Below are positions 24,660-63,626 of a DNA stretch of 64,000 nt, piece by piece. How positions within the stretch are numbered: the first letter of the stretch is position 1; each line of letters begins with the position of its first letter. The position numbers and the translations under genes are program-made. The notes under the pieces were generated by a model. That model saw only the letters and a program-made list of their open reading frames with translations, was not told the DNA's origin and did no database searches. Origin of the DNA: Thiohalobacter thiocyanaticus (lineage in GTDB: Bacteria > Pseudomonadota > Gammaproteobacteria > Thiohalobacterales > Thiohalobacteraceae); NCBI RefSeq assembly GCF_002356355.1, contig NZ_AP018052.1, positions 1,302,001-1,366,000 on the forward strand, read 5' to 3'.

Positions 24660-24683
24660 TTCCGGTTTTCCGTTTTCGAAGCG

Positions 24684-26121: not shown

Positions 26122-26145
26122 ACATGGAAAACCCTGCTTTGGTCC

Positions 26146-26188: not shown

Positions 26189-26213
26189 ACAAGTGAGATG
26201 ACAGGGTAGATAT

Positions 26214-26642: not shown

Positions 26643-26649
26643 AGCGGTA

Positions 26650-27171: not shown

Positions 27172-27349
27172 TTTACTCTGTCGTCTTGCACGTCACGCCA
27201 GAACAGGCCAGTCCGGAACTGCGTCAAGTCTGGTTAAAGTATTCACTACACAATAGAATATGATTTCGATCTCTGGTCATGAGCCTCTACGGGATCGATT
27301 CCCGCTGTTTGGCTATTCCGGACACGAAGTTTCTGGGGAGGTGCTTTTC

Positions 27350-29323
<1,974 letters not shown>

Positions 29324-39846: not shown

Positions 39847-40102
39847 CACCGGGAATCAGTACCAGGAAATCCTGCAGGGGCTGTACGGAATGCTGGAGCG
39901 GTTTCCCACCCGCAATATCGACCTGCAGGAGCAGACCGATCTGGTGGCGGACATGGGACTGGATTCCATCAATGTGATGGAGTTGTTACAGGAAATCGAG
40001 GACCGATTCGATATAATCGTGCCCTTGAACGTGATGTCGGACGTCCGCACGGTGCAGGATCTCGCCACCCAGGTCCAGCGTCTGATCAGGGAGAACTCAT
40101 GA
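39836..40102 (+). CDS. Acyl carrier protein
   Basis: An 88-residue ACP with the phosphopantetheine attachment motif DMGLDSINVMEL (Ser near residue 45), the usual acidic helix after it and a C-terminal VQDLATQV helix. It is a dedicated copy, not the housekeeping AcpP, since no fab genes are near. It lies between the CerR-like and palmitoyltransferase genes with overlaps on both sides (11 and 4 bases). It therefore probably carries the acyl chain that is condensed with serine. Confidence 0.93.
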   Translation: MSTDTGNQYQEILQGLYGMLERFPTRNIDLQEQTDLVADMGLDSINVMELLQEIEDRFDIIVPLNVMSDVRTVQDLATQVQRLIRENS

Positions 40103-43513: not shown

Positions 43514-43516
43514 ACC

Positions 43517-46868: not shown

Positions 46869-48005
46869 TCAGGCCGGGGCGGTTTCGAGCAGGGCACGCA
46901 CCCGCCCCAGCGCCCGCTGCATATCACTCGACTGGTGCGCCTGCGATCCCGGATGCGGGTCGCCCAGCCAGGCCATCTTGCCGGCGCGGATCAGCTCCAG
47001 ATGCACCCGGCTGATGTCCCGCGACAGGTGCTTCCAGCCCCAGCGCATCAGCGCCCGGTAGGCCAGCGCGCCGGGCGCGATATCGCATTGCTTCCCGGCA
47101 TCCCGTTCGATCACCGCCCGCGCCGCGGCCGTGTCACCGGCAGCCAGGTGCATGTCCCGGCGCATACTGAATCGTCCCACGCCCAGGTCGAACATGTGCA
47201 CCGGCTTGCCGGTGGCATAGGCCTCGGACAGCATGGAGATGCTGTCGGCGGTGATGATCAGTTCGTCGGCCAGGGCCAGAAAACCGAGATAAGGGTTGTC
47301 GGGGTCGTTGCGCTGCCAGCGATAGAGTTGCATGGGCACCTCGGACTGGGCGGCAAAGGCAGCGATCGCCGCGGGACGGGTACGGGCGCTGGAGCTGACC
47401 AGAAGTGAACCGCCGCGCGCCCGTGCCAGTGCCAGTGCATCGCGTACCAGGCGCTGCGCGGCATGCCGGCCGAAGGCGTAGGGACCGCTGTTGCCGCCCA
47501 TGTTGACCGTGATGTAGGGCCGCGGCAGGTGCGCCAGTCGCGGTGCCCAGTGTTCGGCCGCCGCGGCCAGGGTGTCGGGATGCACCCGGTGCAGCGGCAG
47601 GTCGTTGCGCAGGACGTTGGGCCGCTCCGGCACCCGGTACTGGGGCGTGGTGATGATCAGATCGAAATGCTTCGGGTCCGCCCACAGTCGGCCCACGAAC
47701 ACGATGCGGGTGCGGCCGCCGGACTGGTCGCGGATCCAGCGGCACACGGGTTCGTTGCGCATGCCGGCCGACAGCACCAGGTCCGGCCAGGGCGGGCTGA
47801 GCGGATCGGAGCGGGACCGATCCACACCATGCAGATCGCGGCCGCGGAACAGATTGGTGCGTATCTCCCGCTTGCGGTAGTGCAGCGACTTGCGTTCCCA
47901 GGGCAGCGCCAATGCCTCGGCCAGGGCGCGCAGCTGGGTCTGTTCGCCGGCGCGATAGGCGTCCACGATCCAGACCTGCGCGGCCACTGGGTTGTCCCGC
48001 TTCAT
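46869..48005 (-). CDS. ELM1-family (PF06258-like) putative glycosyltransferase, copy 1
   Basis: A 378-residue protein of the family named after plant mitochondrial-fission factor ELM1 and common in bacteria, with a GT-B-like fold. Shared motifs with the other two copies: LSPPWPDLVLSAGMRN (residues about 72-87), FDLIITTPQYRVPERPNVL, NMGGNSGPYAF and ELIITADSISMLSEA. The donor and acceptor are unknown. A role in adding a sugar to the lipid is inferred from its setting. The start at 48005 overlaps the stop of the upstream acyltransferase by four bases, so it is the last gene of a four-gene minus-strand operon. Confidence 0.85.
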   Translation of the reverse strand: MKRDNPVAAQVWIVDAYRAGEQTQLRALAEALALPWERKSLHYRKREIRTNLFRGRDLHGVDRSRSDPLSPPWPDLVLSAGMRNEPVCRWIRDQSGGRTRIVFVGRLWADPKHFDLIITTPQYRVPERPNVLRNDLPLHRVHPDTLAAAAEHWAPRLAHLPRPYITVNMGGNSGPYAFGRHAAQRLVRDALALARARGGSLLVSSSARTRPAAIAAFAAQSEVPMQLYRWQRNDPDNPYLGFLALADELIITADSISMLSEAYATGKPVHMFDLGVGRFSMRRDMHLAAGDTAAARAVIERDAGKQCDIAPGALAYRALMRWGWKHLSRDISRVHLELIRAGKMAWLGDPHPGSQAHQSSDMQRALGRVRALLETAPA

Positions 48006-48949
48006 GCGGCGGATTCGCCTGCCGGCGACTGCTTGGGCCAGCGCCGCTTCATGCACAGCCAGTCGCCGGGCGACTCCCGGATCCAGTCCTCGAACAGGCG
48101 GTTCAATCGCAATGTGAGCTCGCTGACCTGGGCATGGCGATCGGCCAGGGCCGGATCGGGTCTGAGCGGCGCCAGCACCTCGATGCGGTAGCGGTGCCGC
48201 GGCAGCCGCACGCAGCGGATGGGAATGAGCGGATAGCCGCGCAGCGACAACCGCGCCGGTGTGGTATTGGTCGGCGCCGGTACGTCGAAGAAGGGGATCA
48301 TCTCGCCGGAATCGATGCGGGTGTCGAAGGCCGCGCCCACGCTGTGGCCGTCGGCCAGTTCACGCATCAGTTCACGCACGCCGCCGGCGGTCGGCACCAG
48401 GCGCGAGCCGAAGGCGCGGCGCCGCGCCTGGAAGAACCGACGCAGCCAGGGATTGGCCTCGCGGGCGTAGAGGATGGAGATGCTCAGGCCGTATTCGCGG
48501 CTGATCAGGTTGGTCAGCTGCCAGGCGCCGGCATGGGCCGTGGCGAAGACCATGGCCTCGCGCCGCTCGAACGCCTGCATGGCCTCGGGATGGACATCGA
48601 ATTCCAGATAGCGCTCCCGGCGCCGCCACAGCCGGTCCAGCAGGAACAGTTCGGCGGCTGCCAGGCCGGTGGTGCGGAAGACCTGGCGCGTGAAGGGGTC
48701 GCGTTCGGCCTCGGTGAGTTGCGGCAGTACCACTGCCAGGTTGCGCTGCACCACGCGGCGCTTCTTCGTGTTGTGGTAGCCGATGACGCCGAACAGCCGT
48801 GACAGGAAGGCGGCCGCCAGGGGGAAGGGCAGCAGTCGGATCAGGCCGTAGAGGCCGTAGAACACCAGGGCCTCGAGCAGCCACACCGGCTGTTGGGTCC
48901 AGGGTGCCTTCTTGGCCAGGCGCTTGGGCAGCAGATAATACTTGGGCAT
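48002..48949 (-). CDS. LpxL/HtrB-family acyltransferase-like protein with altered catalytic motif
   Basis: A 315-residue inner-membrane protein of the lysophospholipid/lipid A acyltransferase family with an N-terminal hydrophobic segment. The family catalytic motif is His-x4-Asp/Glu. Here it reads TAHAGAWQLTN, with Gln in place of the acidic residue (codon CAG). Later family features (PFFDVPAPTNTTPARL, GYPLIPIRCVRL) are kept. It may have lost acyl transfer or use a different mechanism; the other copy at 49646 keeps the Glu. It lies between the hydroxylase-like gene and the ELM1-family gene, overlapping the latter by four bases. Confidence 0.85.
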   Translation of the reverse strand: MPKYYLLPKRLAKKAPWTQQPVWLLEALVFYGLYGLIRLLPFPLAAAFLSRLFGVIGYHNTKKRRVVQRNLAVVLPQLTEAERDPFTRQVFRTTGLAAAELFLLDRLWRRRERYLEFDVHPEAMQAFERREAMVFATAHAGAWQLTNLISREYGLSISILYAREANPWLRRFFQARRRAFGSRLVPTAGGVRELMRELADGHSVGAAFDTRIDSGEMIPFFDVPAPTNTTPARLSLRGYPLIPIRCVRLPRHRYRIEVLAPLRPDPALADRHAQVSELTLRLNRLFEDWIRESPGDWLCMKRRWPKQSPAGESAA

Positions 48950-50647: not shown

Positions 50648-50842
50648 GTGTGAGTGTTTCCTGCCCGTCCCGCGGGCCTGACATAGGGTAGGGAAAAACC
50701 AGGGAAAAGCAGTGTGCCGGAGGGGGCGGGAAAGATCAAACAGCGCGCCGGTGCTGGGTTCCGGTCCAGGGGTTACGGTATGATGACGGGATTGATTCGC
50801 CAAACCCCGCCTTGTCGGGTGGGGACATTGCAAAGGAGCGGT

Positions 50843-51991
50843 ATGGCGCACACCCAGACCAGCAGCGGGAATCTGGACATCCGCGAGGCGCGTGACCGGA
50901 CGACAATAGGGGATTTCCTGCAGCTGCCGCACCGTCTCTATGCCGACGACCCGGCCTGGGTGGCGCCGTTGCATTTCGAGCAGCGCGAGCGGGTGTTTCG
51001 CAACCATCCACTGTTCGAGCACAGCCGGGTGCGGGCATGGGTGGCCTACCGCGATGGCCGGCCGGTGGGCCGGATCACCGCCCAGCTGGACCGCCTGCAG
51101 CCGCCGGTCGAGGGCGACAGGCTCGGCTATTTCGGCATGCTCGAGGCCGAGGACGACGCGCCCCTGTTCGCTGCCCTGCTGGAGACGGCCGGCGACTGGC
51201 TGCGCGAGCAGGGTGCGGCCCGGATCCGCGGCCCCTACAACCTCTCCATCAACGAGGAAATCGGCCTGCTGGTGGAGAATTTCGCCGCTCCGCCCTACAT
51301 CATGATGGGACACGCCCGGCCCTACTACCCGAAACGGCTGGAAGAGCAGGGCTTCACCGGCGTGAAGGATCTGCTGACCTACACGGTGCAGCCGGACTTC
51401 ACCGCCCCGGCGGTGATGGAGAAGCTGGCGCAGAAGGCCCTGCGCCGGGTGCGGATACGGCCGCTGGACCGCAAACGCAAGGCCGCCGACTTCGAGGCCA
51501 TGCGCGACATCTTCAACGACGCCTGGTCCGGCAACTGGGGCTTCGTGCCCTTCACCCGCGCCGAGTTCGCGGAAGTGGCGAAGATGCTCAGCCTGCTGCT
51601 GGACCACGACTATATCCAGATCGCCGAGATCGATGAGCGCCCGGTGGCCTTCATCGCCGCTCTGCCCAATCTGAACGAGGCCATCCGCGACCTGAACGGA
51701 CGGCTGCTGCCGCTGGGCTGGGCGCGGCTGCTGTGGCGGCTCAAGGTCCGGCGGCCCCGCACCTGCCGGGTGGCGCTGATGGGCGTGCGGCGCGAGCACC
51801 AGTATTCGCGCCTGGGGCCGACCCTGGCCTTTCTGGTCATCGATGCGGTGCGCAAGGCCATGATCCGGCGCGGGGTGGAGACAGTTGAGATGGGCTGGAT
51901 ACTGGAGGATAATGCCGGTATGCGGCACATCATCGAAGCGATCGGCAGCCGGATCTACAAGCGTTACCGGGTCTACCAGAAGTCATTGTGA
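50843..51991 (+). CDS. GNAT-type N-acyltransferase, bacterial ceramide synthase (bCerS)-like
   Basis: A 382-residue protein of a large GNAT subgroup. An N-terminal half contains FLQLPHRLYADDPAWVAPL, RGPYNLSINEEIGLLVENF and MMGHARPYYPKRLEEQGF. The C-terminal half has the acyl-CoA fold (VALMGVRREHQYSRLG, VEMGWILEDNAGMRHIIE). In Caulobacter a GNAT protein of this type is the ceramide synthase that acylates 3-oxosphinganine or sphinganine. The match to that subgroup is from memory of its motifs, not an alignment. The ATG at 50843 has AAAGGAG in front. It is followed closely by the nucleotidyltransferase and oxygenase genes. Confidence 0.82.
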   Translation: MAHTQTSSGNLDIREARDRTTIGDFLQLPHRLYADDPAWVAPLHFEQRERVFRNHPLFEHSRVRAWVAYRDGRPVGRITAQLDRLQPPVEGDRLGYFGMLEAEDDAPLFAALLETAGDWLREQGAARIRGPYNLSINEEIGLLVENFAAPPYIMMGHARPYYPKRLEEQGFTGVKDLLTYTVQPDFTAPAVMEKLAQKALRRVRIRPLDRKRKAADFEAMRDIFNDAWSGNWGFVPFTRAEFAEVAKMLSLLLDHDYIQIAEIDERPVAFIAALPNLNEAIRDLNGRLLPLGWARLLWRLKVRRPRTCRVALMGVRREHQYSRLGPTLAFLVIDAVRKAMIRRGVETVEMGWILEDNAGMRHIIEAIGSRIYKRYRVYQKSL

Positions 51992-51998
51992 GCCGGGC

Positions 51999-52889
51999 GT
52001 GGACAATCACCCCTCAGACCGCCAGCAGGCGCAACCCAACCCGACCGGAGCGGCCGTCTCCGCGCGTTTCGCCTGCGTGATCCTGGCCGGGGAACGGACC
52101 CGGCGCGATGCCCTGCGCGAGCACTCCGGGGTCGCCTGCAAGCCCCTGCTGCGCATCAGCGACGTTCCCATGATTCACCGGGTCATCAGCGCCCTGCGCG
52201 GGGCGGATACGGTCGGGCCCATCCGGCTCAGCGGGCCGGAGCAGGCCTGTGTGCAGAGCGACGCCGAACTGGCGCGCGAGATCGCCGAGCAGCGCCTGAA
52301 CTGGTCGCCGCCGGAGGCCTCGCCCAGCACCAGCGCCTATCGGGAACTGTCCGCGCTGCCGGCAGAGCACCCGGTACTGATCACCACGGCCGACCATCCC
52401 CTGCTGACCAGCGAGATCGTCGACCGCTTCTGCCAGGAAAGCGCCGCCAGGCAGTGTGACGTACTCGTCGGACTGGCGCCGTATGAACTGGTCAAATCGG
52501 TCTATCCGGACATCAGCAAGACCGTGCTGCGCTTCCGCGACGGCAACTACTGCGGCTGCAACCTGTTTGCCTTCATGACGCCGGAAGGACGGCGCGCCGC
52601 CGACTTCTGGCGTCGGATCGAGAACCAGCGCAAGAAGCCGCTGCTGGTGATCGGCCTGCTCGGCTGGTGGGCGGTGATCCGCTACCGGCTCGGCCTGCTG
52701 ACGCTGGATGCCGCCCTGGAACGCCTGTCGCGTCACCTGGGACTGCGACTCGGGGCGGTGATCCTGCCCTATGCCAACGCCGCCGTGGATGTGGACTCGG
52801 TGGCCGACTACGATCTGGTGCAGCGCTATGCCGATGAAACCGCGGCGCAGGAACCAGACCGCGAACATCGCCTGATGCAGCAGCCCTGA
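51999..52889 (+). CDS. MobA-like nucleotidyltransferase
   Basis: A 296-residue protein with a GT-A-like NTP-transferase fold. The opening FACVILAGERTRRDALREH and KPLLRISDVPMIHRV are followed by the metal-site strand VLITTADHPLL and the loop CDVLVGLAPYEL. The C-terminal third is hydrophobic in part (LLVIGLLGWWAVIRYRLG), unusual for MobA proteins, and suggests membrane association. In Caulobacter a nucleotidyltransferase is also encoded with ceramide head-group genes. It starts at GTG (51999), eight bases after the previous stop. A role in head-group activation is inferred. Confidence 0.75.
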   Translation: MDNHPSDRQQAQPNPTGAAVSARFACVILAGERTRRDALREHSGVACKPLLRISDVPMIHRVISALRGADTVGPIRLSGPEQACVQSDAELAREIAEQRLNWSPPEASPSTSAYRELSALPAEHPVLITTADHPLLTSEIVDRFCQESAARQCDVLVGLAPYELVKSVYPDISKTVLRFRDGNYCGCNLFAFMTPEGRRAADFWRRIENQRKKPLLVIGLLGWWAVIRYRLGLLTLDAALERLSRHLGLRLGAVILPYANAAVDVDSVADYDLVQRYADETAAQEPDREHRLMQQP

Positions 52890-52920: not shown

Positions 52921-53586
52921 ATGACCGAGACAGATACCCGACTTCTCAATTTCCAGGCGGTGGAGGACACCCCGCTGCAGACCGAGCCGTTCAGCTTCAT
53001 GGTCGCCGAGGGCGTGATCCCGTCCGGGGAACTGGAACGGGTCAATGCCGATTACCCCTACATCGATATCCCGGCCAACTTCAACCCGGAGGACCTCGAG
53101 TATGGTCCGGCCTTCGCCCGGGTGCTGCAGGACCTGGACAGCCCCGAGTTCGAACGCCTGATCGCGCGCAAGTTCGGCGTGGATCTGAGCCGCACGGTCA
53201 AGACCATCACCGTGCGCAAGTACTCCGAGATGAGCGATGGCAACATCCACACCGACCATTGGAGCAAGGTGATCACGGTGCTGCTGTACTTCAACCCGGA
53301 ATGGCATCAGGAGGGCGGCAAGCTGCGGCTGCTGCGCAGCAAGCACGATATCGAGGACTTTGCCGCCGAGGTCACCCCGCTGGGCGGCACCCTGCTGGCC
53401 TTCAAGCGCAGCGGCAACAGCTATCACGGCTACAAACGCTTCGACGGCGAGCGCCGCATGGTGCAGGTCAACTGGGTGCGTTCCGGCCCGGTGGCGCGCC
53501 AGGCTCAGCGTCTGGCCCGCATGGGTACGCATACCGGCAAGCGCATCCTGCGCCTGGCCCAGGGGCTGCGCGGCGCCGCCAAGTAG
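52921..53586 (+). CDS. 2-oxoglutarate/Fe(II)-dependent oxygenase
   Basis: A 221-residue double-stranded beta-helix oxygenase. The iron ligands are in NIHTDHWSKV (HxD) and SYHGYKRF (second His), with the 2OG-binding Arg in GERRMVQVNWV. The N terminus (FSFMVAEGVIPSGELERV) is typical of prolyl-hydroxylase-like members. The substrate is unknown. Its position suggests hydroxylation of the long-chain base or acyl chain (inference). It is the last gene of the plus-strand run that begins with the ceramide-synthase-like gene. A basic, helical tail follows the catalytic domain. Confidence 0.85.
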   Translation: MTETDTRLLNFQAVEDTPLQTEPFSFMVAEGVIPSGELERVNADYPYIDIPANFNPEDLEYGPAFARVLQDLDSPEFERLIARKFGVDLSRTVKTITVRKYSEMSDGNIHTDHWSKVITVLLYFNPEWHQEGGKLRLLRSKHDIEDFAAEVTPLGGTLLAFKRSGNSYHGYKRFDGERRMVQVNWVRSGPVARQAQRLARMGTHTGKRILRLAQGLRGAAK

Positions 53587-53590: not shown

Positions 53591-53683
53591 GTAGGATGGG
53601 TGGAGGCGCATTGCGCCGTAACCCATCAATTGTCCGGCCGGCCTCTGTGGTGATGGGCTGCGCTGCGCTTCACCCATCCTACG
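53591..53683. repeat. Palindromic repeat, divergent member (GTAGGATGGGT arms)
   Basis: Left arm GTAGGATGGGTGGAGGCGCA and right arm TGCGCTTCACCCATCCTAC frame GTAACCCATCA and TGATGGGCTGCG hairpins. The right arm supplies the CTA (53679-53681) that is the TAG stop codon of the sulfotransferase gene on the minus strand. Confidence 0.8.
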
Positions 53684-54608
53684 TCCGGCAGTAGCCGAAC
53701 ACCGGGTCCAGATGCTGCTCCACCATGGCGTCGACCGCCTGGAGTTGCTCATCCGTGAAGTAGTCGCGGTACCCGCCCACCTTGCCGCGCCGCACCTTGA
53801 AGGAATCCGGATTGTTCTCGTCCCCCGGTTTTACCCGCTGGCCGCTGGCCCGCATGCCGTCTTTCCCGGCCTCGCGTTTCTTCATGTTGTCGTAGGCGGC
53901 GTATTCCACCGCGGCGGCGATCTCCCCGGCACTGCCGGGCGTGCCGGTGAAATCGAACACCTTGCGCATGATCGCGGCCGGATCGCTGCGCATGTCCTCG
54001 TAGCGGATCAGCAGCAGGTCATCGCCCAGCATCGGCATGGCCGCGGCCCAGCCGTTGAAATAGTCGACGATGCGCGGAATGCCGCATTGTTCGTTGCTGA
54101 CGAAGTCGAACACATCGACCTCAGTGCCGTGGGGCGGGTAATCGTTGAGCAGCTTCTTGCGCGGCAGCATCCGGTAGCGCCACTGGAAGTACTGGGAGAC
54201 GGCCACATCGCGCGGATCGCGCACCAGCAGTACCACCTGCTTGCCGCGGAAATGCTCCAGGTTGTCCCAGTTGCGCAGGTAATCGCGCATGTAGTTGTTG
54301 TGACTGAACAGCACCTTGGGCGCGGCCGGGTTGAGGCGGTTGTAGTTGTCGAACTCCAGCATGTGATCCGTCGGCAGGTTGAAGCGCAGCTGATAGAAGC
54401 GCGACAGCATCACGCGGAACCAGGTGCGGCCGCTCTTGCCCCAGGACATCAGCACCCAGTCGGCCGCCTGCAGCTTGCGGTATTCCTCCCTGCCGCGCAG
54501 GCGCCGCTCGAGCGCGATGCGTTTTTCCTGCGGCAGGAAAAACAGTGTGGCCAGGGCCAGGTGACGCGAGGCCACGGCCCCCATTTCTCTGTAGGACATG
54601 TCGGGCAT
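53679..54608 (-). CDS. Sulfotransferase, copy 1
   Basis: A 309-residue PAPS-dependent sulfotransferase. The 5'-phosphosulfate loop region is VLMSWGKSGRTWFRVML. The 3'-phosphate motif is LVRDPRDVAVSQYFQWRYR. Near the C terminus stands FKVRRGKVGGYRDYFTDEQ, the counterpart of the RKGxxGDWKNxFT motif of cytosolic sulfotransferases. It should transfer sulfate to a hydroxyl; the glyco- or sphingolipid is the likely acceptor from context. The start at 54608 or 54599 cannot be separated. The stop codon lies inside a repeat arm. It is divergent from the second ELM1-family gene. Confidence 0.88.
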   Translation of the reverse strand: MPDMSYREMGAVASRHLALATLFFLPQEKRIALERRLRGREEYRKLQAADWVLMSWGKSGRTWFRVMLSRFYQLRFNLPTDHMLEFDNYNRLNPAAPKVLFSHNNYMRDYLRNWDNLEHFRGKQVVLLVRDPRDVAVSQYFQWRYRMLPRKKLLNDYPPHGTEVDVFDFVSNEQCGIPRIVDYFNGWAAAMPMLGDDLLLIRYEDMRSDPAAIMRKVFDFTGTPGSAGEIAAAVEYAAYDNMKKREAGKDGMRASGQRVKPGDENNPDSFKVRRGKVGGYRDYFTDEQLQAVDAMVEQHLDPVFGYCRT

Positions 54609-54730
54609 TGGAGCGTGGTATCCGTGCTGAATGGGGCTGTTTCGCCCCGGCGACAGGCCGCGTATGATAGCACAGATTCTCATGCGGGCGCCCGGGTGCG
54701 CTGCGCTCACGCGAACGATCCGGCGCGATA

Positions 54731-55816
54731 ATGGAAAAGACTGTCTGGGTGCTGCTGGGGCGAAAGGCGGGCGACAACAACCAGGTGCTGGCACTGGCCG
54801 AGGCACTGGGCTGGCCGTATGAGGAAAAGCGCATTCAGGCGCGCGGCTGGGAACTGCTGCCGCACCTGCTGCTGCGCGTGACCCTGGCCGGCATCGACCG
54901 CCGCGCCTCCAGCCCGCTTTCACCTCCCTGGCCGGATATGGTCATCAGCGCCGGCCGGCGCAACGAGCCGGTTGCGCGCTGGATCCGCCGCCGCACCGGC
55001 GGCCGCACGCGGCTGGTCCATATCGGTCGGCCCTGGGCACCGCTGGACTGCTACGACCTCATCGTGACCACGCCGCAGTACTTTCTCCCCGAGCGCGACA
55101 ACGTCCTGCACAACACCCTGCCGCTGCATCGGGTGCGTTCCGATCGGGTCGCGGCAGCCGCGCGCCGGCTGCAACCCGAGCTTGCGGCACTGCCGCACCC
55201 CCTCACCACGGTCCTGATCGGCGGCGACAGTGGTCCGTTCGTGTTCACGCCGGACAAGGGACGGCGGCTGGCCGAGGGCGTGAACCGGCTGGTGGCGCAG
55301 ACCGGCGGCTCGGTGCTGGTGACCGACAGCCGGCGCACGTCGGCGGCCGCCGCTGCGGCCTTCCGCAACGCGCTCAAGGTGCCGGCGGCCACCTACTGGT
55401 GGGACCTGGACAACAGCGACAGGGAAAATCCCTACCTGGCCTATCTCGGGCTTGGCGAGCGCTTCGTGGTCACCGGCGAGAGCATGTCCATGCTGGCCGA
55501 AGCCGCGGCTATGGGACGGCCGCTGTACCTGTTCGATCCGGGAGACCCGCCCGGCACCTGGTGGCTGCGTGCGCGCAATTTCCGGCACCAGCCGCTCAGC
55601 CATCGCCTGGCCATGCGACTGGCGCCGCTGCGCATGCGCCGCGACGTGGGGCGCATCCAGCAGGCGCTGGTGGATGCCGGCCGGGCGCGCTGGCTGGAGC
55701 AGGCGCCTGAATTGATCGCTCAGGGGGAGGACTGGTACCGGGCGGTGGAAGCCGACTCGGGCGCCGAGCTTGAACGCACGGCCCAGCGGGTGCGGCTGAT
55801 GATGGGCATCACGTAG
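54731..55816 (+). CDS. ELM1-family putative glycosyltransferase, copy 2
   Basis: A 361-residue protein with the same motifs as the copies at 46869 and 60376: LSPPWPDMVISAGRRNEPVA, YDLIVTTPQYFLPERDNVL, LIGGDSGPFVF and RFVVTGESMSMLAEA. A GT-B-like fold and a nucleotide-sugar donor are expected for the family. It is divergent from sulfotransferase copy 1, with the start codons about 120 bases apart. No signal peptide or membrane segment is clear, so it acts in the cytoplasm or at the inner membrane face. Confidence 0.85.
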   Translation: MEKTVWVLLGRKAGDNNQVLALAEALGWPYEEKRIQARGWELLPHLLLRVTLAGIDRRASSPLSPPWPDMVISAGRRNEPVARWIRRRTGGRTRLVHIGRPWAPLDCYDLIVTTPQYFLPERDNVLHNTLPLHRVRSDRVAAAARRLQPELAALPHPLTTVLIGGDSGPFVFTPDKGRRLAEGVNRLVAQTGGSVLVTDSRRTSAAAAAAFRNALKVPAATYWWDLDNSDRENPYLAYLGLGERFVVTGESMSMLAEAAAMGRPLYLFDPGDPPGTWWLRARNFRHQPLSHRLAMRLAPLRMRRDVGRIQQALVDAGRARWLEQAPELIAQGEDWYRAVEADSGAELERTAQRVRLMMGIT

Positions 55817-55830
55817 GAGTGGGTGGAACT

Positions 55831-55914
55831 GCGTAGGTCGGATTAGCCCGCGAGGGCGTAATCCGACACGGACCGCGAGATGTCGGGTTACGCTGCGTTA
55901 ACCCGACCTACGAA
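55831..55914. repeat. GTCGGGTTA-family palindromic repeat (two units)
   Basis: A diverged unit (GTAGGTCGGATTAGCCCGCG) faces GTAATCCGAC. It is followed by a TGTCGGGTTACGCTGCG unit and TTAACCCGACCTACGAA. It lies between the convergent ELM1-family gene and the GT-A-like gene. Confidence 0.8.
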
Positions 55915-55930
55915 TGGTGGTTAAGACAGT

Positions 55931-56875
55931 TCACGCCGCCTGCTGCGTGCTCAGCGGATGCGCCGGCGCCGGCGGCAGGTCCGGGGTGCGCGCCAGCACC
56001 TCGAAGGCATCGTGGCGGACATGGCTGCGCGCCATCTCCTCGCGCAGGAATTCCTCGCTGATCCTGCCCTGGGCGATGCACTCCTTGAGCAGGCCGAAGA
56101 AGAAGCGTTCCTGGTTCTGATCGGGATGGGCCTTGTACTTGCCCATCAGGCCGTACTCGCCGAACAGGTGACGCCGGGCCCGCAGCAGCCAGGCGGCCGG
56201 CGGGAACAGGCGGAAGCGCTCGGACGGGCGCCAGTCCACCGGCAGGCCGGTCTTCCAGGGCTGGGTCTTGCGTCGGGTGGTATGCAGCATCTTTGTCGCC
56301 GGTGAGAAGGTATCGAAGTCGTTCCATTCCTTCTCGAAGAAGCCGATGCTCTCCGGGTCCTCGTTCTTCAGGCAGATCCAGGGCTGGTAATCGTAGCCGG
56401 CGTCGAACATGGCATTGAACTGCGCCTCCGGCTTCCAGTGCGTGAGGCGGCTGTTCTCGAGCAGCATCACGCTGCTGGCATAGCAGCGGTCGATGAAGCC
56501 CTTGGGTCCGGAGCGCATGCGGCACATGATGGCCTTGCCCTGCATATCGCGGCTGAGCAACTCCCAGATGTCGGTGCAGGCGAAGATATCGGGGTCGATG
56601 ACCACGGCCCGGCCCTGATAGTTCATCAACTGCGGCGGCATGAAACGGGTGGGGGTGAAGGACTGCAGGTCGTCGTTCAGCCACACCCGCTGCACCCCGT
56701 CGCGCAGATAGCTCTGGCCCTCGCGCGCCTGGAAGAAGGGGTAGTCGCGGGTGTCCATGATGTGGACGTCGAACTCGTCGTTGTGAGAGGAATAACGGCG
56801 CAGTGCATGCTCGGCGACGATGGCGCCGACGATCTGCTTGTGATTGGTCTGAATGAATACCCCGTAATTCTTCAT
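55931..56875 (-). CDS. Putative GT-A-type glycosyltransferase, paralog A
   Basis: A 314-residue cytoplasmic protein closely similar along its whole length to the product at 62712. The start of the fold is GVFIQTNHKQIVGAIVAEHA. The middle carries RAVVIDPDIFACTDIWEL, a DxD-like motif after a strand, as in family 8-type transferases, and TKMLHTTRRKTQPWKTGLP follows. Family assignment is by pattern only; I do not recognise a named family. The start at 56875 is chosen by matching the paralog. The two copies flank the block of sulfotransferase, kinase and nucleotidyltransferase genes, in keeping with head-group assembly. Confidence 0.75.
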   Translation of the reverse strand: MKNYGVFIQTNHKQIVGAIVAEHALRRYSSHNDEFDVHIMDTRDYPFFQAREGQSYLRDGVQRVWLNDDLQSFTPTRFMPPQLMNYQGRAVVIDPDIFACTDIWELLSRDMQGKAIMCRMRSGPKGFIDRCYASSVMLLENSRLTHWKPEAQFNAMFDAGYDYQPWICLKNEDPESIGFFEKEWNDFDTFSPATKMLHTTRRKTQPWKTGLPVDWRPSERFRLFPPAAWLLRARRHLFGEYGLMGKYKAHPDQNQERFFFGLLKECIAQGRISEEFLREEMARSHVRHDAFEVLARTPDLPPAPAHPLSTQQAA

Positions 56876-57067
56876 GATGCTCAATACCCTGCGTGTTGCG
56901 TGGTGCCACTATACCGCATCGGCCGGGGGCGAGTCATGGCGCAGATCAAAAATGATTCGACTCAGCATGGCGACCTCAACGCAGAGGACGCAGAGACTCG
57001 GAGACGCAAAGTTATTGTGTATAAATAAAAATTCTGGTTATGCAGCCGCTGTGAACAGAAGTCTCCG

Positions 57068-58033
57068 TCAGCGGAAGACACCGCGGCGGTACAGCTGCCA
57101 GCCCCAGGCCCAGACGTGGATCAGAGGCCGACGGCGAACCCGCTCCGGTACCTCGATCGTCTGGCCCGAATGACGCGTCAGCTTCCAGGCCAGATAGTCC
57201 AGGCCGCCCTCGAAGGTGAACAGGCCCTTGACCAGCCTCGCCACGGACAGCAGCTTGCCCAGTCCCCGCCGCAGCCGCCACTGCCAGGGGGCCAGGCGCC
57301 GGGCCGCGGGGGGGACGTGTGCGCGGTACCTGTATACCCCGGCCTCGGTCTCTGGCGGCAACAGGGTCAGGCCGTCGGCCAGCCGCCCGGCCAGTGCCTG
57401 CGTTATCACGGTGTAGAAGGCCTGTCCGTGTCCGGCCAGTTCGCCGGCACGCCCCTGACGCTCGGTGCGCAGTTCGGTGGCATAGCTCAGCGCCAGGGCG
57501 CCTGCCCAGAGGTCATCCAGCGTGCCTTCGGCCGGCAGGGCGGGGAGGGCGCGGCGCAGCAGGGTCTCGGCGGCCTGCAGGAAATCCGCGTGCAGACGTG
57601 CGCGCACCTGCGGCGTGCGGCTGTAGATCACCTTGACCGGCTGGGCAAAGCGGCCCCACAGATAGGATTCGAACCGGCGCGGCCCGGTGCCGCGGTCGAA
57701 TGCCTCCAGGCTGAGCACAGCGTACTTGCAGCGCACCGTGCTGCCGTCCACGGGGGCTTCGAGGTAATAGACATTGGGCGGCAGCAGCCGGATAGCGAGA
57801 CGGCGCAGGAGACGAGGCTCGGCGCTGCGGTAGTCGTCGATCAGGACATACAGGTCGACCACGCCTTCCAGCAAATCCGCACTGCGCAGACAGGAGCCGT
57901 ACAACACCACCGCCTGCAGCGCATCGCCGAAGCGGGTCTGCAGGGCGTCGAGCAGGGCCGCCAGCGGCGGCGAGTCGGCAACAGTGGGACCGGCGGGTTC
58001 GGGGTAGGCGGATTGGAATGTAGAGGCAGCCAT
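57068..58033 (-). CDS. Tam41-like nucleotidyltransferase (candidate CDP-ceramide synthase)
   Basis: A 321-residue protein with a polymerase-beta-type nucleotidyltransferase motif: VVLYGSCLRSADLLEG, then DLYVLIDDY. Further on are NVYYLEAPVDGSTVRCKYAVL and ESYLWGRFAQPVKVIYS. This order, a YGS motif, an acidic VDD-like strand, an NVYY segment, a KYAV/KYGV segment and a GR-QKPVK-like segment, resembles mitochondrial Tam41. Tam41 makes CDP-diacylglycerol from phosphatidic acid. Beside a DAG-kinase-type gene in a sphingolipid locus, CTP:ceramide-phosphate cytidylyltransferase is an attractive guess. The similarity is by eye. The C-terminal 100 residues are basic. Confidence 0.65.
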   Translation of the reverse strand: MAASTFQSAYPEPAGPTVADSPPLAALLDALQTRFGDALQAVVLYGSCLRSADLLEGVVDLYVLIDDYRSAEPRLLRRLAIRLLPPNVYYLEAPVDGSTVRCKYAVLSLEAFDRGTGPRRFESYLWGRFAQPVKVIYSRTPQVRARLHADFLQAAETLLRRALPALPAEGTLDDLWAGALALSYATELRTERQGRAGELAGHGQAFYTVITQALAGRLADGLTLLPPETEAGVYRYRAHVPPAARRLAPWQWRLRRGLGKLLSVARLVKGLFTFEGGLDYLAWKLTRHSGQTIEVPERVRRRPLIHVWAWGWQLYRRGVFR

Positions 58034-58070
58034 GCGGGATTCATTATGCCCTAGAAAACTCTGATATCCC

Positions 58071-58095
58071 CATTCCCGCCTGCGCGGGAATGACG
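58071..58095. repeat. Half-copy of the CGTCATTCCCGC repeat
   Basis: A single hairpin, CATTCCCGCCTGCGCGGGAA followed by TGACG, just upstream of the Tam41-like gene. The partner arm is missing. Confidence 0.65.
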
Positions 58096-58138
58096 GTGTA
58101 TTTCGGTGTTGTAGCCAATACTCCAGCCCGCTGAGTCG

Positions 58139-58223
58139 CGTAGGTCGGGTTAGCGCAGCGTAACCCGACCCATAGCGGCAAGCCGCGTCGGGTTACGCCC
58201 TGTCGGGCTAACCCGACCTACGA
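58139..58223. repeat. GTCGGGTTA-family palindromic repeat (complete copy)
   Basis: Arms GTAGGTCGGGTTAGCGCAGC and GGCTAACCCGACCTACG enclose a GC-rich centre with GTCGGGTTACGCCC. It is nearly the same as the copy at 11166. It separates the kinase-type gene from the Tam41-like gene on the same strand. Confidence 0.85.
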
Positions 58224-58256
58224 TGTCCACGGAATACGCAAAGATCAACAGCCAGG

Positions 58257-59234
58257 TCATGTCAGCCGCAGAAACCGGAACGGCCCGCGGGCGGTGACTG
58301 TCAGCGGTCCTGTGGAAGGGGCGGTCTGCAGCAGTTCTCCGTCCAGGTTCAGCATGCCATCGAAGTCGAGTTCCAGACGCCGGGTGTGGAAGCTCTCATA
58401 GCCCAGTTCCGGCTGCACATGCCGGTTGGGCCGGCCGCGCAGGATGGAGGCGAAGGCGCGCGGGAAATGCCTCGCCCCGGCGCGGACGGTGGTCAGGCCC
58501 ACCGCGCCGTCGCCGCTGCCCCAGAAGGGCCGGATGCCGAGGAACAGCCGCTCCAGGGTACTGGCGGCCAGGATCAGCATGGGGGTTTCCGGGCGGTCGA
58601 TGCTGCTGTCGGGAAGTCGCAGCGCCACCGGGGTCGGCTGATAGAAACGCGGGTCACGCCGGGCCAGGCCCCACAGGGTACGCACCAGCGTCAGCCCCAG
58701 GCTGATATCACCGCCCAGGCCGCGTGCATGCACCCTGCTGTGGGCGTACTGGGTGGCCTGCATGATGGCGCCGGTGCCCAGGAACATGCCGTGGTGGATG
58801 CGGCCGTCGGTCAGGCCCTCCACTTGCATGATATGCCGTTCCAGCGTCGGGATGTCCAGCGGGCAGCCGCGGTCCAGCCAGCGGAAAAACCGTTTCCATG
58901 CCTTGCGCGGCGAGCCGGCCGCGCCCACATCGCCGGCGCTCATATTGGCGGTGCCGCCGGGAAGGACGATCAGTGCGGGCCGGCGTTGCTGCGGCCAGTG
59001 CTGCAGCAGCAGTCCCAGCAGGCAGGCCAGGGTGCCGTCGCCGCCGTTGATCGCCAGCACCTGTATGTCGCTGTCGGCCAGTCGACGGATGAGTGTCTCG
59101 GCCTCCTCGACCGTGCGGGTGATGTGCTGCTCGAGCTGCGGATAGTGCGCCAGCCGGGGCTGCAGCCGCGCCCAGGCCCTGCGGTTGTTGCCGCTGGCCG
59201 GATTGCTGATCAGGACGGCGCGTGTCGGCTTCAT
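58257..59234 (-). CDS. Diacylglycerol-kinase-family lipid kinase (candidate ceramide kinase)
   Basis: A 325-residue DAGK-catalytic-domain protein. The N-terminal AVLISNPASGNNRR and the ATP-loop VLAINGGDGTLACLLGLLL (GGDGT) are diagnostic, and VLPGGTANMSAGDVG follows. The C-terminal beta domain ends LNLDGELLQTAPS. Members phosphorylate diacylglycerol, sphingosine or ceramide. The Caulobacter ceramide kinase of the ceramide-phosphoglycerate pathway belongs to this fold. Given the palmitoyltransferase and ceramide-synthase-like genes nearby, ceramide is the likely substrate (inference). The start overlaps the stop of the upstream gene by four bases. Confidence 0.85.
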   Translation of the reverse strand: MKPTRAVLISNPASGNNRRAWARLQPRLAHYPQLEQHITRTVEEAETLIRRLADSDIQVLAINGGDGTLACLLGLLLQHWPQQRRPALIVLPGGTANMSAGDVGAAGSPRKAWKRFFRWLDRGCPLDIPTLERHIMQVEGLTDGRIHHGMFLGTGAIMQATQYAHSRVHARGLGGDISLGLTLVRTLWGLARRDPRFYQPTPVALRLPDSSIDRPETPMLILAASTLERLFLGIRPFWGSGDGAVGLTTVRAGARHFPRAFASILRGRPNRHVQPELGYESFHTRRLELDFDGMLNLDGELLQTAPSTGPLTVTARGPFRFLRLT

Positions 59235-60241
59235 CGGCTGAGCCGTGCGGCTTCCAGTCGCACTTCGCCCGGGCCGAGGCGCGGGGCGTCACCGCGCAGG
59301 GCCAGCGGCAGGCGGGTGGCGGGATCCAGCAGCAGGGTCAGGGGCGGGCGCAGGCCCAGCAGTTCGAAGCCGTTCTCCGGCTCGCCCAGGGGATTGACCT
59401 GCAGCCGGATTACCAGCGCCTCGACCTGACCCCGCACCGGTTGCTCGCCAGCGGCGGTCTCGCGCCGGTAGTCGACCTCGATGCGTTCGTGACCGCTGAC
59501 CTCCAGCACGACCCGGAAGAAATCGTGGTCGGTGTGCACATAATAGGTTTCCCTGTCACCCGCGGCGTGCAGGGAGGCGGCACTGGCGAGCGGCAGCAGC
59601 AGGGTGGGCGAGACCAGACCGGCTGTCCGGGGAATGGCCTGCGGCAGCGCCAGCCGCCCCGCACTGGACACGGGCCAGTCACGGGCCAGTGTCAGGGCGC
59701 TGCTGGCGCCGTCGTGAAGCCAGTCCGGCTGGGCCTCGACCTCGGCGGCAGTGACGGCGCTCTCCCGGCGCTCACGCAGCAGACTGCGAGCTTCGTACCG
59801 GTAGCACTTGGCCCGGCTGTCGCGGCGACCGAAGCCGACCCGGCAGCGCTGCACCAGGCCGCCGGCGGGATCGTACCAGACGGACAGCCGTTCCAGGTTC
59901 TGCCGTCCCACCCGGTTGTCGGCCAGCAGCACCAGCAGCGGATTGCCCGGGGCAGGGAGGGTGCCGCGCGCAACCTGGACGGGGAGTTCGTCAGGCGCGA
60001 CCGTGTACAGGCGCAGCCGGGAGACGGCCGACCCCAGCAGGTTGGAGGCGCTCAGGGTGATGGCCTGCCAGCCCACCGCCGGGAGTGGCGCAGGGGCGGT
60101 GGGTGTGACCGCTTCGGGTCGCGGCAGGCGGGGCTCACCGCCGGCCAGAGCAGGTGTCGGGACGGCCATGGTCAGCAGCAGGCCTGCCAGGGTGCAGCGC
60201 ATGTCCGGGATCCGACGTGTCTGTGTGCGCTTCAACAACAT
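59231..60241 (-). CDS. Exported protein of unknown function, coupled to the lipid kinase
   Basis: A 336-residue protein with a signal peptide after a basic start (MRCTLAGLLLTMAVPTPALA lies near residue 14). The body is beta-rich with LSVWYDPAGGLVQRCRV, YYVHTDHDFFRVVLEV, IRLQVNPLGEPENGFELLGL and LLLDPATRLPLAL. The pattern recalls DUF3108-like periplasmic domains that may bind lipids, but it is not a confident match. AAGGGG five bases before the ATG at 60241 supports that start. It overlaps the kinase gene by four bases, so its function is probably linked to the same lipid. Confidence 0.7.
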   Translation of the reverse strand: MLLKRTQTRRIPDMRCTLAGLLLTMAVPTPALAGGEPRLPRPEAVTPTAPAPLPAVGWQAITLSASNLLGSAVSRLRLYTVAPDELPVQVARGTLPAPGNPLLVLLADNRVGRQNLERLSVWYDPAGGLVQRCRVGFGRRDSRAKCYRYEARSLLRERRESAVTAAEVEAQPDWLHDGASSALTLARDWPVSSAGRLALPQAIPRTAGLVSPTLLLPLASAASLHAAGDRETYYVHTDHDFFRVVLEVSGHERIEVDYRRETAAGEQPVRGQVEALVIRLQVNPLGEPENGFELLGLRPPLTLLLDPATRLPLALRGDAPRLGPGEVRLEAARLSR

Positions 60242-60257
60242 GTTACCCCTTAGATGC

Positions 60258-60325
60258 CGTCATCCCCCGAAGGCGGGGATCCAGCAGTGCGAACTTTCTG
60301 GATTCCCGCCTTCGCGGGAATGACG
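60258..60325. repeat. CGTCATTCCCGC-family palindromic repeat (complete copy)
   Basis: Arms CGTCATCCCCCGAAGGCGGG and CCCGCCTTCGCGGGAATGACG (split) flank about 25 bases. It lies between copy 3 of the ELM1-family gene and the exported-protein gene, on a shared strand. Confidence 0.8.
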
Positions 60326-60375
60326 CTATGAAACTGTAGCCATATCTCCTGACGCTTGAGTAAGCAGCTGACGGT

Positions 60376-61524
60376 TCATCTGTCCGGCAACAGCCGGTCG
60401 ATGCGCTCCAGGATACGCTGCAGGTCCTGTTCGGTCTGCTCGCCGGCGCGGTCCGGTCCGCCGTGGGCGCCGGCCGCATCGGCGTCATCGCCTGCCCAGC
60501 GGGCCAGCCCCTGATCGACCAGCATCTGGTGAAAGCGCGGAAAGTGACGGGTCTGCTGCAGCAGCCGCAGGTGGTACAGGGCACGGGCCGTCGCGATCCG
60601 GGCCTGCTCTCCTGAATTGTCAGCGCGCACTGGCTGAAACAGCCAGGCGGCCAGACGGCGGCGGGCGTTGTCGATGCCGCCGAACCAGCCGGTGGGCAGA
60701 GGCAGGATCTCCAGCGGCCGGCCCAGCCGGGCCACCTCCACCTGCATGGAAATGCTGTCGCCGGTGACCACGAAGCGATCGCCCAGGGCCAGCAGGCCGG
60801 CATAGGGATTCCCATCCTGCGGGTCGTTCCAGTCATAGACCTGCACCGCCGCGGGCAGATCCCGGCGCAGCCGCTGCATGAAGCGCGGCGGGGTGCGGCG
60901 CGAGCCGACCAGGTAGGGCGTGCCGCCGCTGGCCAGTACCTGGTCGATACGGTCGCGGAGTCGGCGTACTACGGTGTTGTTATACACGAAGGGGTTGGTC
61001 GGGCCGCCGATGAGAAAGGCCACCAGGGGCCGGGGCAGGGCGGCGAAGGCCTGCTCCCATTCGGCGCGTCCGGCCTCGAGCCGGGCCGGATCGAGCTGCA
61101 TCAACGGCAGGCCGATGTGCATGACATTGGGGAAGGGTGCGGGCAGGGTCTCGGCGCTGGTGATGATCAGATCGAAGTGCGCCATCCAGCCCGAGGGCTT
61201 GCCGACCAGCACGATGCGCGAACGGCCGCCGGATTGCTGCTTGATCCAGAGCGCCGCATTGGCCGGGCGCCGGCCGCTGGTCAGGATCAGGTCGGGCCAG
61301 GGCGGTGTCAGGGCGTCGGAGCGTTCCGGATCCAGATGATACAGGGTGGGACCGACGCGCGGCTTGCCGAACACGTATCTGGGCTGCATCTCCAGGTGGC
61401 GGAGCTCGGAGGTCCAGCCGCGCTGCCGGGCAAGGGCCTCGGCGATGACCTCGACCTGGCCGTTGTCCCCGCGTTTGTCGCCGAGGACCCGCCAGATGCG
61501 CGGCGCCCGACCCTGAGAGGACAA
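60376..61524 (-). CDS. ELM1-family putative glycosyltransferase, copy 3
   Basis: A 382-residue protein and the most divergent of the three ELM1-family copies: LTPPWPDLILTSGRRPANAA, FDLIITSAETLPAPFPNVM, LIGGPTNPFVYNN (the second Gly and Ser of GGDSGPF are changed) and RFVVTGDSISMQVEVA. It probably starts at TTG (61524), four bases after the stop of the upstream sulfotransferase gene, so translation is coupled. The changed nucleotide-binding loop may mean a different donor sugar. A charged C-terminal tail of about 60 residues follows the fold. Confidence 0.83.
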   Translation of the reverse strand: MSSQGRAPRIWRVLGDKRGDNGQVEVIAEALARQRGWTSELRHLEMQPRYVFGKPRVGPTLYHLDPERSDALTPPWPDLILTSGRRPANAALWIKQQSGGRSRIVLVGKPSGWMAHFDLIITSAETLPAPFPNVMHIGLPLMQLDPARLEAGRAEWEQAFAALPRPLVAFLIGGPTNPFVYNNTVVRRLRDRIDQVLASGGTPYLVGSRRTPPRFMQRLRRDLPAAVQVYDWNDPQDGNPYAGLLALGDRFVVTGDSISMQVEVARLGRPLEILPLPTGWFGGIDNARRRLAAWLFQPVRADNSGEQARIATARALYHLRLLQQTRHFPRFHQMLVDQGLARWAGDDADAAGAHGGPDRAGEQTEQDLQRILERIDRLLPDR

Positions 61525-61528
61525 GACC

Positions 61529-62530
61529 TTACTGCCCGGCCGCGGCCGGCGCCGCCGGGGTGTCCTCCTGCGGCTGGTCCAGGCCGAACAGTGCCTGCAG
61601 GCGCGGCGAGAGTTCCCGGCGCACCAGCTGCTCCAGTTCCTGTGCCTGTGCCTCGCTGAAGTAGTCGCGATAGCCGCCGACCTTGGCCCGGCGCACCTTG
61701 AAGCTTTCCGGGTCGCCGGCGTTGCGCAGGGTCAGGCCGCCCGAGCGGAAGAAGCCTTCGCTTTCCAGCTTGCGCAGGTTGTCGAAGGAGGCGAACTCCA
61801 CCGCCTCGTTGATTTCCTCGTCGCTGAAGCGGTCGCCCATCAGTTCGGTGATCTGGCGCAGCACCTGCGCCGGTTCGCGTCGCAGCGCCTCGTAGGAGGT
61901 CAGCAGAGTGTGGTCCAGTGAATCCAGCGCCGCATCCCAGTGGTTCAGGAAGCGGATCAGCGAGGGCAGGCCGATTTCGCTCTCGCGCACAAACTCCCAC
62001 ATCCCGATGTTGGTGCGATCCACGGGGTGGCTCAGTTCGGCATTGATCAGTTCCTGCTTATGGCTCGACTGGCGCTTGGTGAACTGGAAATACCAGGACA
62101 CGGCGATGTCCAACGGATTGCGCGCCAGCAGTACCACCGGCTTGTGTCTGAGCTCGGAATCCGGGGCTCCCGGCTGCAGCTTGTCGCCCACTGCGCGTTC
62201 ATAGCTGTACCAGCCGTTGGTGGCGGCGAAGCGGGGGATCTCGGGATTGGCGTCGGCCAGCGCCGGGTAGCGGGCGAAGTCCTCTTCCGGGATGCCGTGA
62301 CGCTTGCTGTAGAGCCGGGTCAGCATGACCTTCAGCCAGGTGTTGCCGCTCTTGGGATGGGCGATGATGATCAGCGAGGAACGCCGGGCGATGTCCACCT
62401 CCAGCGCGCCCAGCCGGGCCTTGCGCCGGGCCACGCGCAGGGAGCGGGGCAGCACGGCCGTGGTGGTGATGATGGCGGCCTTGCGGGCGTTGTCGCTGCC
62501 GATGCGGCGCAGCGGGTTGATGAAGCTCAT
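61529..62530 (-). CDS. Sulfotransferase, copy 2
   Basis: A 333-residue PAPS-dependent sulfotransferase with a more canonical first motif, IIAHPKSGNTWLKVMLTRLY. The second motif is VVLLARNPLDIAVSWYFQFT, and FKVRRAKVGGYRDYFSEAQ is close to the C terminus. About 45 basic residues precede the first motif. It differs clearly from copy 1, so the two may sulfate different positions. It forms an operon with ELM1-family copy 3 and is divergent from the GT-A-like paralog B. PAPS must be supplied from genes outside the window. Confidence 0.9.
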   Translation of the reverse strand: MSFINPLRRIGSDNARKAAIITTTAVLPRSLRVARRKARLGALEVDIARRSSLIIIAHPKSGNTWLKVMLTRLYSKRHGIPEEDFARYPALADANPEIPRFAATNGWYSYERAVGDKLQPGAPDSELRHKPVVLLARNPLDIAVSWYFQFTKRQSSHKQELINAELSHPVDRTNIGMWEFVRESEIGLPSLIRFLNHWDAALDSLDHTLLTSYEALRREPAQVLRQITELMGDRFSDEEINEAVEFASFDNLRKLESEGFFRSGGLTLRNAGDPESFKVRRAKVGGYRDYFSEAQAQELEQLVRRELSPRLQALFGLDQPQEDTPAAPAAAGQ

Positions 62531-62711: not shown

Positions 62712-63626
62712 ATGGAGCATTGCGTATTCATCCAGGCCAATGACAAGCAGCATCTCGGCGCCCTGGTGGCGCAGTATGCCCTGCGGCGCAATTCGAAGCA
62801 CAATGACCGCTTCGATATCCGCATCATGCACTACGACGATTTTCCCATCCTGCGCGAGCACGAAGGGCAGATGTACCTGCGCGACGGCGAGTGGCGCCAG
62901 TGGGTCCGCGACGACCTGCAGTCCTTCACCCCGACCCGCTTCCTGCCGCCGCAGCTGATGGACTATCAGGGTCGTTCCATTGTCATCGACCCGGACATCT
63001 TCGCCCTGGCCGACATCTGGGAGTTGTTCTCCCGCGATATGGAAGGCAAGGCCGTCATGTGCCGGCCCAAGTCCGGCAACAAGGGCAAGCGCGGCTGCCT
63101 GGCCACCAGCGTGATGCTGATGGACAACGCAAAGCTGACTCACTGGAAGTTCGAGGAACAGTTCCACGCCATGTTCGAGGGCACGCGCGACTACATGCCC
63201 TGGGTGTGCCTGAAATACGAGGATCCGGAGACCATCGGCCTGTTCGAGCCCGAGTGGAACGACTTCGATCATCTCGATGCCAACACCAAGATGCTGCACA
63301 ACACCAAGCGCAAGACTCAGCCCTGGAAGACCGGGCTGCCGGTGGATTTTCGCGCCGCCGATTCCTTCCGCCTGTTTCCGCCCAAACACTGGTTCCGACG
63401 CGCGCGTCGGGCGCTGTTCGGCGACTACGGCCTGGCCGGGCGCTACCGGGCCCATCCGGATCCGAACCAGGAGGCCTTCTTCTTCGGGCTGGTGCGCGAG
63501 TGCCTGGATCAGGGTGTGATCAGCGAAGACCTGCTGCGCCAGGAGATGGCAAAGAACCATCTGCGCCACGATGCGCTGGAACTGCTGGATCGCACCCCGC
63601 CGCTGGCCCGGGCCAGTGGCCACTAA
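62712..63626 (+). CDS. Putative GT-A-type glycosyltransferase, paralog B
   Basis: A 304-residue protein nearly collinear with the product at 55931. Shared blocks include DDLQSFTPTRFLPPQLMDYQ, RSIVIDPDIFALADIWEL, MLHNTKRKTQPWKTGLPVDF and a C-terminal HPDPNQEAFFFGLVREC. No signal peptide is present. GAGGA lies eight bases before the ATG at 62712; an upstream GTG at 62685 would add nine unsupported residues. The conservation of the DPDIFA strand in both copies suggests a metal-binding catalytic site. The acceptor is unknown. Confidence 0.75.
   Translation: MEHCVFIQANDKQHLGALVAQYALRRNSKHNDRFDIRIMHYDDFPILREHEGQMYLRDGEWRQWVRDDLQSFTPTRFLPPQLMDYQGRSIVIDPDIFALADIWELFSRDMEGKAVMCRPKSGNKGKRGCLATSVMLMDNAKLTHWKFEEQFHAMFEGTRDYMPWVCLKYEDPETIGLFEPEWNDFDHLDANTKMLHNTKRKTQPWKTGLPVDFRAADSFRLFPPKHWFRRARRALFGDYGLAGRYRAHPDPNQEAFFFGLVRECLDQGVISEDLLRQEMAKNHLRHDALELLDRTPPLARASGH

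Follow-up and report, generated by a model that had tools for sequence, protein, structure and literature searches.

The stretch analysed here, which we call the window, comprises 64,000 nucleotides (G000:C1:1302001-1366000) of the single-contig genome (3,233,441 bases) of the sulfur-oxidizing gammaproteobacterium Thiohalobacter thiocyanaticus. It contains two sulfotransferase genes, ST1 and ST2, lying in a locus for sphingolipid synthesis, and two paralogs, ST3 and ST4, are encoded just past its end. Co-occurrence, synteny and shared horizontal transfer give strong support to a link between this sulfotransferase (ST) family and the synthesis of sphingolipids. We put a probability of roughly 0.6 on the reading that ST1-ST4 are the sulfotransferases of the sphingolipid pathway and place sulfate esters on the headgroup, on sugar or possibly other hydroxyls. 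The two genes in the window, both predicted to encode enzymes dependent on 3'-phosphoadenosine 5'-phosphosulfate (PAPS), are:

53679..54608, minus strand: ST1, PAPS-dependent sulfotransferase, SULT-type, 309 amino acids (PF00685, 1.7e-25; His at the catalytic position)
61529..62530, minus strand: ST2, PAPS-dependent sulfotransferase, 333 amino acids (PF00685, 1.6e-22; Asn at the SULT catalytic-His position)

Both proteins match the Pfam profile Sulfotransfer_1 (PF00685) far above its cut-off of 22 bits (90.3 bits for ST1 and 80.6 for ST2), and all 33 family members scanned match the profile too. The initial annotation correctly reported a gene at ST1, but the open reading frame given for ST1, to 54923, could not be retained, since that frame runs into a divergent ELM1 gene; alignment with relatives places the start at the ATG at 54608, so that the gene occupies 53679-54608. 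It also described the two proteins as clearly different. They are indeed products of two distinct genes, yet they are 34% identical (E=3e-54) and are paralogs of one family that includes ST3 and ST4, and we rejected the possibility that they are unrelated or accidental neighbors. ST3 (∼69.1-70.1 kb in window numbering) and ST4 (∼71.6-72.5 kb) sit about 7-10 kb beyond ST2. There are at least 13 PF00685 places in the genome, and only ST1-ST4 fall in the sphingolipid region. The nearest named relative is T. thiocyanaticus Hrh1, with an ST2 91% identical to that of the window. An NCBIfam scan of both STs and their neighbors gave no named family for either ST, and a Pfam scan of the 33 members at E≤0.1 returned Sulfotransfer_1 and Sulfotransfer_3 only, with no match to the profiles for cerebroside (galactosylceramide) sulfotransferase or Stf0.

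The PAPS-binding motifs noted earlier were confirmed in both proteins (MSWGKSGRTWF and RDPRDVAVS in ST1; AHPKSGNTWL and RNPLDIAVS in ST2). When 161 relatives were aligned, the loop Lys was present in 158 and its Gly, Thr and Trp in every sequence, as were the Arg, Asp and Ser of the 3'-phosphate site and, in the C-terminal R-R-x-K-x-G-G motif, the Arg and the second Gly (161/161 each). Judged from this alignment, the relatives show almost no variation at the positions with which SULTs bind PAPS. An AlphaFold model of ST2 (mean pLDDT 90) found as its best structural matches SULTs with bound PAP, among them SULT1C2 (Z 17.4, rmsd 3.5, 244 aligned residues). The model supports the SULT fold and the PAPS site, so that for ST2 the refuting condition named in the initial annotation, motifs unlike PAPS sites in a structural model, does not apply. 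The closest solved relatives of the ST1-ST4 family are cytosolic SULTs, and ST1 and ST2 are accordingly predicted to be PAPS-dependent sulfotransferases of the cytosolic type. The catalytic His of SULTs aligns with His in 38 of 39 sequences for ST1 (His103 in ST1 itself), 56 of 56 for ST3 and 9 of 9 for ST4. The genome also encodes an APS kinase domain, and therefore PAPS can be made.

The genes for ceramide synthesis and export in the window are as follows:

37061..38884, plus strand: aasR, acyl-ACP synthetase-like (PF00501, 1.8e-58)
38854..39846 (start codon not resolved), plus strand: cerR, NAD-dependent epimerase-type reductase (PF01370, 7.1e-24)
39840..40099 (approximate), plus strand: acpR, acyl carrier protein (DMGLDSINVMELL motif, frame read)
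40099..41313, plus strand: spt, serine palmitoyltransferase (SPT) (PDB 2x8u SPT, E=1.8e-119)
42407..44584, plus strand: lptF2 and lptG2, second LptF/LptG permease genes (PF03739, 1.2e-53 and 4.8e-57)
44867..46576, plus strand: MsbA/PglK-type lipid ABC exporter (PF00664/PF00005; MsbA 7e-76, below the equivalog cut-off)
50843..51991, plus strand: cerS, bCerS-like GNAT acyltransferase (PF00583, 3.5e-6; co-occurrence with spt)

All five genes aasR, cerR, acpR, spt and cerS are thus present, with cerS and acpR assigned by a weak GNAT match, a motif and context. The cerS label is supported because, of the 24 sampled genomes with this GNAT marker, 21 also have spt. The neighborhood of ST1 and ST2 is a true sphingolipid locus, and the earlier description of it as such is borne out by the SPT identity and by the CerR, AasR, AcpR, bCerS-like, ceramide-kinase-like and LptF2/LptG2 genes. 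We rejected a sulfonolipid (capnine) pathway, since the acyltransferase matches SPT 2x8u with 402 bits versus 192 bits for cysteate-C-fatty acyltransferase; the comparison with Bacteroidetes sulfonolipids made in the initial annotation is for the same reason inapplicable. The locus also holds two LpxL-like homologs of lipid A acyltransferases, at 48002-48949 and 49646-50653 (both minus strand), which flank a fatty acid hydroxylase gene.

To determine the distribution of the family, 369 Gammaproteobacteria were sampled evenly, and strong family members were defined by E≤1e-100. Six genomes, that of T. thiocyanaticus included, contain such members, and all six also have spt and cerS, which occur in 21 and 24 of the 369 genomes, respectively (p 1.6e-8 for spt and 4e-8 for cerS). 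When the window's own genome was left out the association held in five of five genomes (p 6e-7 for cerS), and when calculated by family, taking the highest family number encountered, 182, as the assumed total, p was 4e-5. At the looser threshold of E≤1e-40, both genes were found in 7 of 10 ST genomes of the same sample. The ST and sphingolipid genes lie on the same contig, 2-21 kb apart, in five genomes. As a control, cerS was found in 8 of 143 genomes carrying other PF00685 sulfotransferases, which is no more than background, and we therefore rejected the idea that generic sulfotransferases show the same association. Among 50 ST-bearing genomes, 43 have cerS, 42 have spt and 45 have at least one of the two.

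Between and around the sulfotransferase genes lie candidates for construction of the headgroup:

46869..48056, minus strand: elmA, ELM1-family putative glycosyltransferase (PF06258, 1.3e-58)
51993..52889 (start not resolved), plus strand: MobA-like nucleotidyltransferase, CpgD-like candidate (PF12804, 5.7e-15)
52921..53586, plus strand: 2OG-Fe(II) oxygenase (PF13640, 9.7e-10; conserved in 44 of 78 loci)
54731..55816, plus strand: elmB, ELM1-family putative glycosyltransferase, divergent from ST1 (PF06258, 3.8e-62)
55931..56875, minus strand: gt8a, GT8-like putative glycosyltransferase (no Pfam hit; 65% identical to its paralog gt8b)
57068..58033, minus strand: Tam41-like nucleotidyltransferase, next to the ceramide-kinase-like gene (PF09139, weak; PDB 6ig2, E=0.001)
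58257..59234, minus strand: cerK, lipid (predicted ceramide) kinase, CpgB-like (PF00781, 1.4e-15; role by CpgB analogy)
59231..60241, minus strand: protein without assigned function (no Pfam hit; 4-nt overlap with the kinase gene)
60376..61524, minus strand: elmC, ELM1-family putative glycosyltransferase (PF06258, 2.4e-51)
62712..63626 (start codon not resolved; GTG 62685 listed), plus strand: gt8b, GT8-like putative glycosyltransferase with a DPD motif (AlphaFold model)

The ELM1 proteins, which we take to be putative GT-B glycosyltransferases, gave no meaningful match when their profile was compared with the PDB. The gt8a/gt8b family has no Pfam or NCBIfam match, and a model of gt8b (pLDDT 88) best matches the galactosyltransferase LgtC (Z 16.5, 219 aligned residues); as modeled, the family has the GT8 (LgtC-like) fold, and its members are putative glycosyltransferases. 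PF09139 was weakly matched by 7 of 18 homologs of the Tam41-like protein (best 9e-7), and the gene recurs beside a ceramide-kinase-like gene in other genomes. We speculate that this enzyme is a candidate for the step from ceramide-1-phosphate, which is assigned to CpgC in Caulobacter, and that it perhaps makes CDP-ceramide.

For analysis of gene order, loci were picked by ST sequence alone. Of the 46 loci that span ≥15 kb, 30 contain at least one of spt, cerS, cerR, aasR or the kinase gene. Any ELM1 gene was found in 60 and any GT8 gene in 48 of 78 loci. The usual order is ST2-elmC-oxygenase-ST1-ST3-gt8b, with spt, elmA, abc, lptG2 and lptF2 on one flank and elmB, gt8a, ntase (nucleotidyltransferase) and cerK on the other, and Halieaceae and others show this synteny, with cerS also present. 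The tandem ST2-elmC, in which ST2 precedes elmC by 4 nt in T. thiocyanaticus, occurs in 46 loci. In the alphaproteobacterium Roseovarius the genes run gt8b-ST2-elmC-kinase-ntase-gt8a-elmB-ST1-oxygenase-ntp-cerS, in the order seen in Thiohalobacter; ST1 and ST2 are 76-81% identical between the two, and the clades of ST1, ST2 and ST3 all place Roseovarius as sister to Thiohalobacter. We used only the inner clades of the ST tree: the long branches of the outgroups prevented rooting, a wrong reading frame affected one outgroup row, and the row L052_ST1 had an abnormal branch. The synthesis, kinase and sulfation genes thus moved jointly, in a likely exchange between habitats of sulfur oxidizers. 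The same cluster order was noted in the Roseovarius-type loci L027, L028, L029, L030, L036 and L072, one of them named R. autotrophicus.

These genes suggest a pathway in which ceramide would be made by spt, AcpR, AasR, CerR and bCerS and converted to ceramide-1-phosphate by the kinase, as by CpgB in Caulobacter (PMC12275187). The nucleotidyltransferases and the ELM1 and GT8 glycosyltransferases would then build the headgroup, and the sulfotransferases would add sulfate esters to its sugar (or possibly other) hydroxyls at the cytosolic face, after which the anionic lipid would travel to the outer membrane by way of the MsbA-like ABC protein and LptF2/LptG2. Since genes for two GT8-fold and three ELM1 putative glycosyltransferases alternate with those for the STs, sulfate is more likely to go to a sugar carried by the sphingolipid than to bare ceramide, and a glycosylated sphingolipid headgroup is the likeliest acceptor. 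The product is probably an undescribed bacterial sphingolipid that is both sulfated and sugar-bearing, and the presence of up to four ST paralogs suggests more than one sulfated position. A broader proposal, to which we give somewhat less than even odds, is a widespread and mobile pathway for a polysulfated glyco(phospho)sphingolipid, with up to four SULT-type paralogs, its own LptFG pair and perhaps a CDP-ceramide intermediate formed by the Tam41-like enzyme, as an independent counterpart of sulfatide. The initial annotation held that the sulfotransferases point to a sulfated lipid; their link to sphingolipid synthesis is upheld, which supports that interpretation in part.

Several observations weigh against assigning the STs to the sphingolipid headgroup. 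The genome encodes LpxC, so that lipopolysaccharide (LPS) is made as well and a second acceptor exists. Asn replaces the SULT catalytic His in 49 of the 57 sequences that best match ST2 (ST2 itself and 48 others), in a clade that also has a 5-residue insertion after this conserved Asn, and because of this substitution ST2 may lack activity or rely on a different base. Five of the 50 ST genomes, several of these five being metagenome-assembled and perhaps incomplete, showed neither spt nor cerS, and the distance between the ST module and spt exceeds 10 kb in genomes of the Thiogranum type. Nothing on the lipid chemistry of Thiohalobacter was found in the open-licence literature.

An alternative is that the module of ST, ELM1, GT8 and oxygenase genes builds a sulfated glycan off the sphingolipid, such as LPS core, O-antigen or another surface saccharide, with the sphingolipid genes as mere neighbors and both serving the outer membrane. 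LPS production, the ability of the ST module to stand apart from spt, the LpxL-like genes of the locus and those next to ST2 in Thiogranum, and an O-antigen-ligase-like gene between ST3 and ST4, outside the window, all fit this explanation. However, LPS is near-universal in Gammaproteobacteria, whereas the ST family is almost confined to the few percent of them that carry genes for sphingolipids, and in Roseovarius and Thiohalobacter ST2, elmC, the kinase and the nucleotidyltransferase lie on one strand and were transferred jointly; we consider it unlikely, though the strongest of the competitors. Direct sulfation of ceramide or a sphingoid base to give a sugar-free ceramide sulfate would suit the nearest solved relatives of the STs, which are SULTs whose substrates are small hydrophobic alcohols, but would leave unexplained the interleaving of the STs with GT8-fold and ELM1 genes, and the lipid kinase encoded in this run of genes is expected to occupy the 1-OH. 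We regard this as improbable. Still less credible is an action on protein or on a secreted small molecule independent of lipid: PF00685 is functionally broad and the acceptor cannot be read from the sequence alone, but the link with sphingolipid genes is seen for the ST family and is absent for unrelated PF00685 enzymes.

The nearest known system is the ceramide (di)phosphoglycerate pathway of Caulobacter crescentus, encoded at CC_1152-CC_1168 (PMC11324152, PMC12275187). That region likewise comprises spt, cerR, acpR, aasR, a bCerS-like GNAT, a lipid kinase, nucleotidyltransferases, a second LptF/LptG pair and an exporter, and yields an anionic sphingolipid. However, its anionic groups are phosphoglycerates and these two papers mention no sulfotransferase, whereas Thiohalobacter adds the STs and the GT8 and ELM1 putative glycosyltransferase genes. 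Candidate Thiohalobacter counterparts of the genes for ceramide phosphoglycerate (CPG/CPG2 type; CpgA-D) are the CpgB-like kinase and two nucleotidyltransferases. The STs resemble cytosolic SULT1, SULT2 and plant SOT enzymes (PF00685) in fold (Z 15-17), in the PSB loop KSGxTW, in the R..D..S pattern and C-terminal RxxKxGG and, for ST1, ST3 and ST4, in the catalytic His. They differ in being bacterial, in having only ∼15-22% identity to SULTs and, for the ST2 clade, in the Asn and the insertion; none of the solved relatives listed is named as acting on a glycolipid.

The animal sulfatide pathway follows the same predicted logic, with sulfate on the sugar of a sphingolipid. Animal cerebroside sulfotransferase belongs to another sulfotransferase family, and since the STs have no match to its Pfam profile the likeness is at best convergent, which suggests that bacteria and animals acquired sulfated sphingolipids separately, each by way of a different sulfotransferase family. 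Bacteroidetes sulfonolipids are also sulfur-bearing and sphingolipid-like, but their sulfur enters as cysteate, whereas Thiohalobacter has an SPT-like enzyme and a predicted sulfate ester. Proteobacterial sphingolipid headgroups described in the open-licence literature are based on phosphoglycerate or sugar. In that literature we found no report of a sulfated bacterial sphingolipid tied to sulfotransferases and nothing relevant on the lipids of Roseovarius or Thiohalobacter, absences that are weak evidence. Neither the fold of the enzymes nor the ceramide pathway is new; it is the combination of ST and sphingolipid genes that was not found there. That this ST family tracks sphingolipid genes through Gammaproteobacteria and Roseovarius and, over a greater distance, in Rhodospirillales and some Myxococcota leads us to predict a new class of anionic lipid in the outer membrane. 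Cultured hosts of the cluster include Thiohalobacter, Roseovarius autotrophicus and Pseudohaliea rubra.

Other features were noted in and around the window. ExbB/ExbD-like genes and a TonB-dependent receptor lie between ST2 and ST3 (∼64.5-68.4 kb in window numbering; L010:9486-13364), and a TonB-like gene lies at the window end. The G+C content falls to 0.54-0.58 at 20000-28000, compared with ∼0.66, near a tRNA-Ser gene at 29633; this block has genes of the metallo-beta-lactamase-fold, methyltransferase and permease types and a partial aminotransferase.

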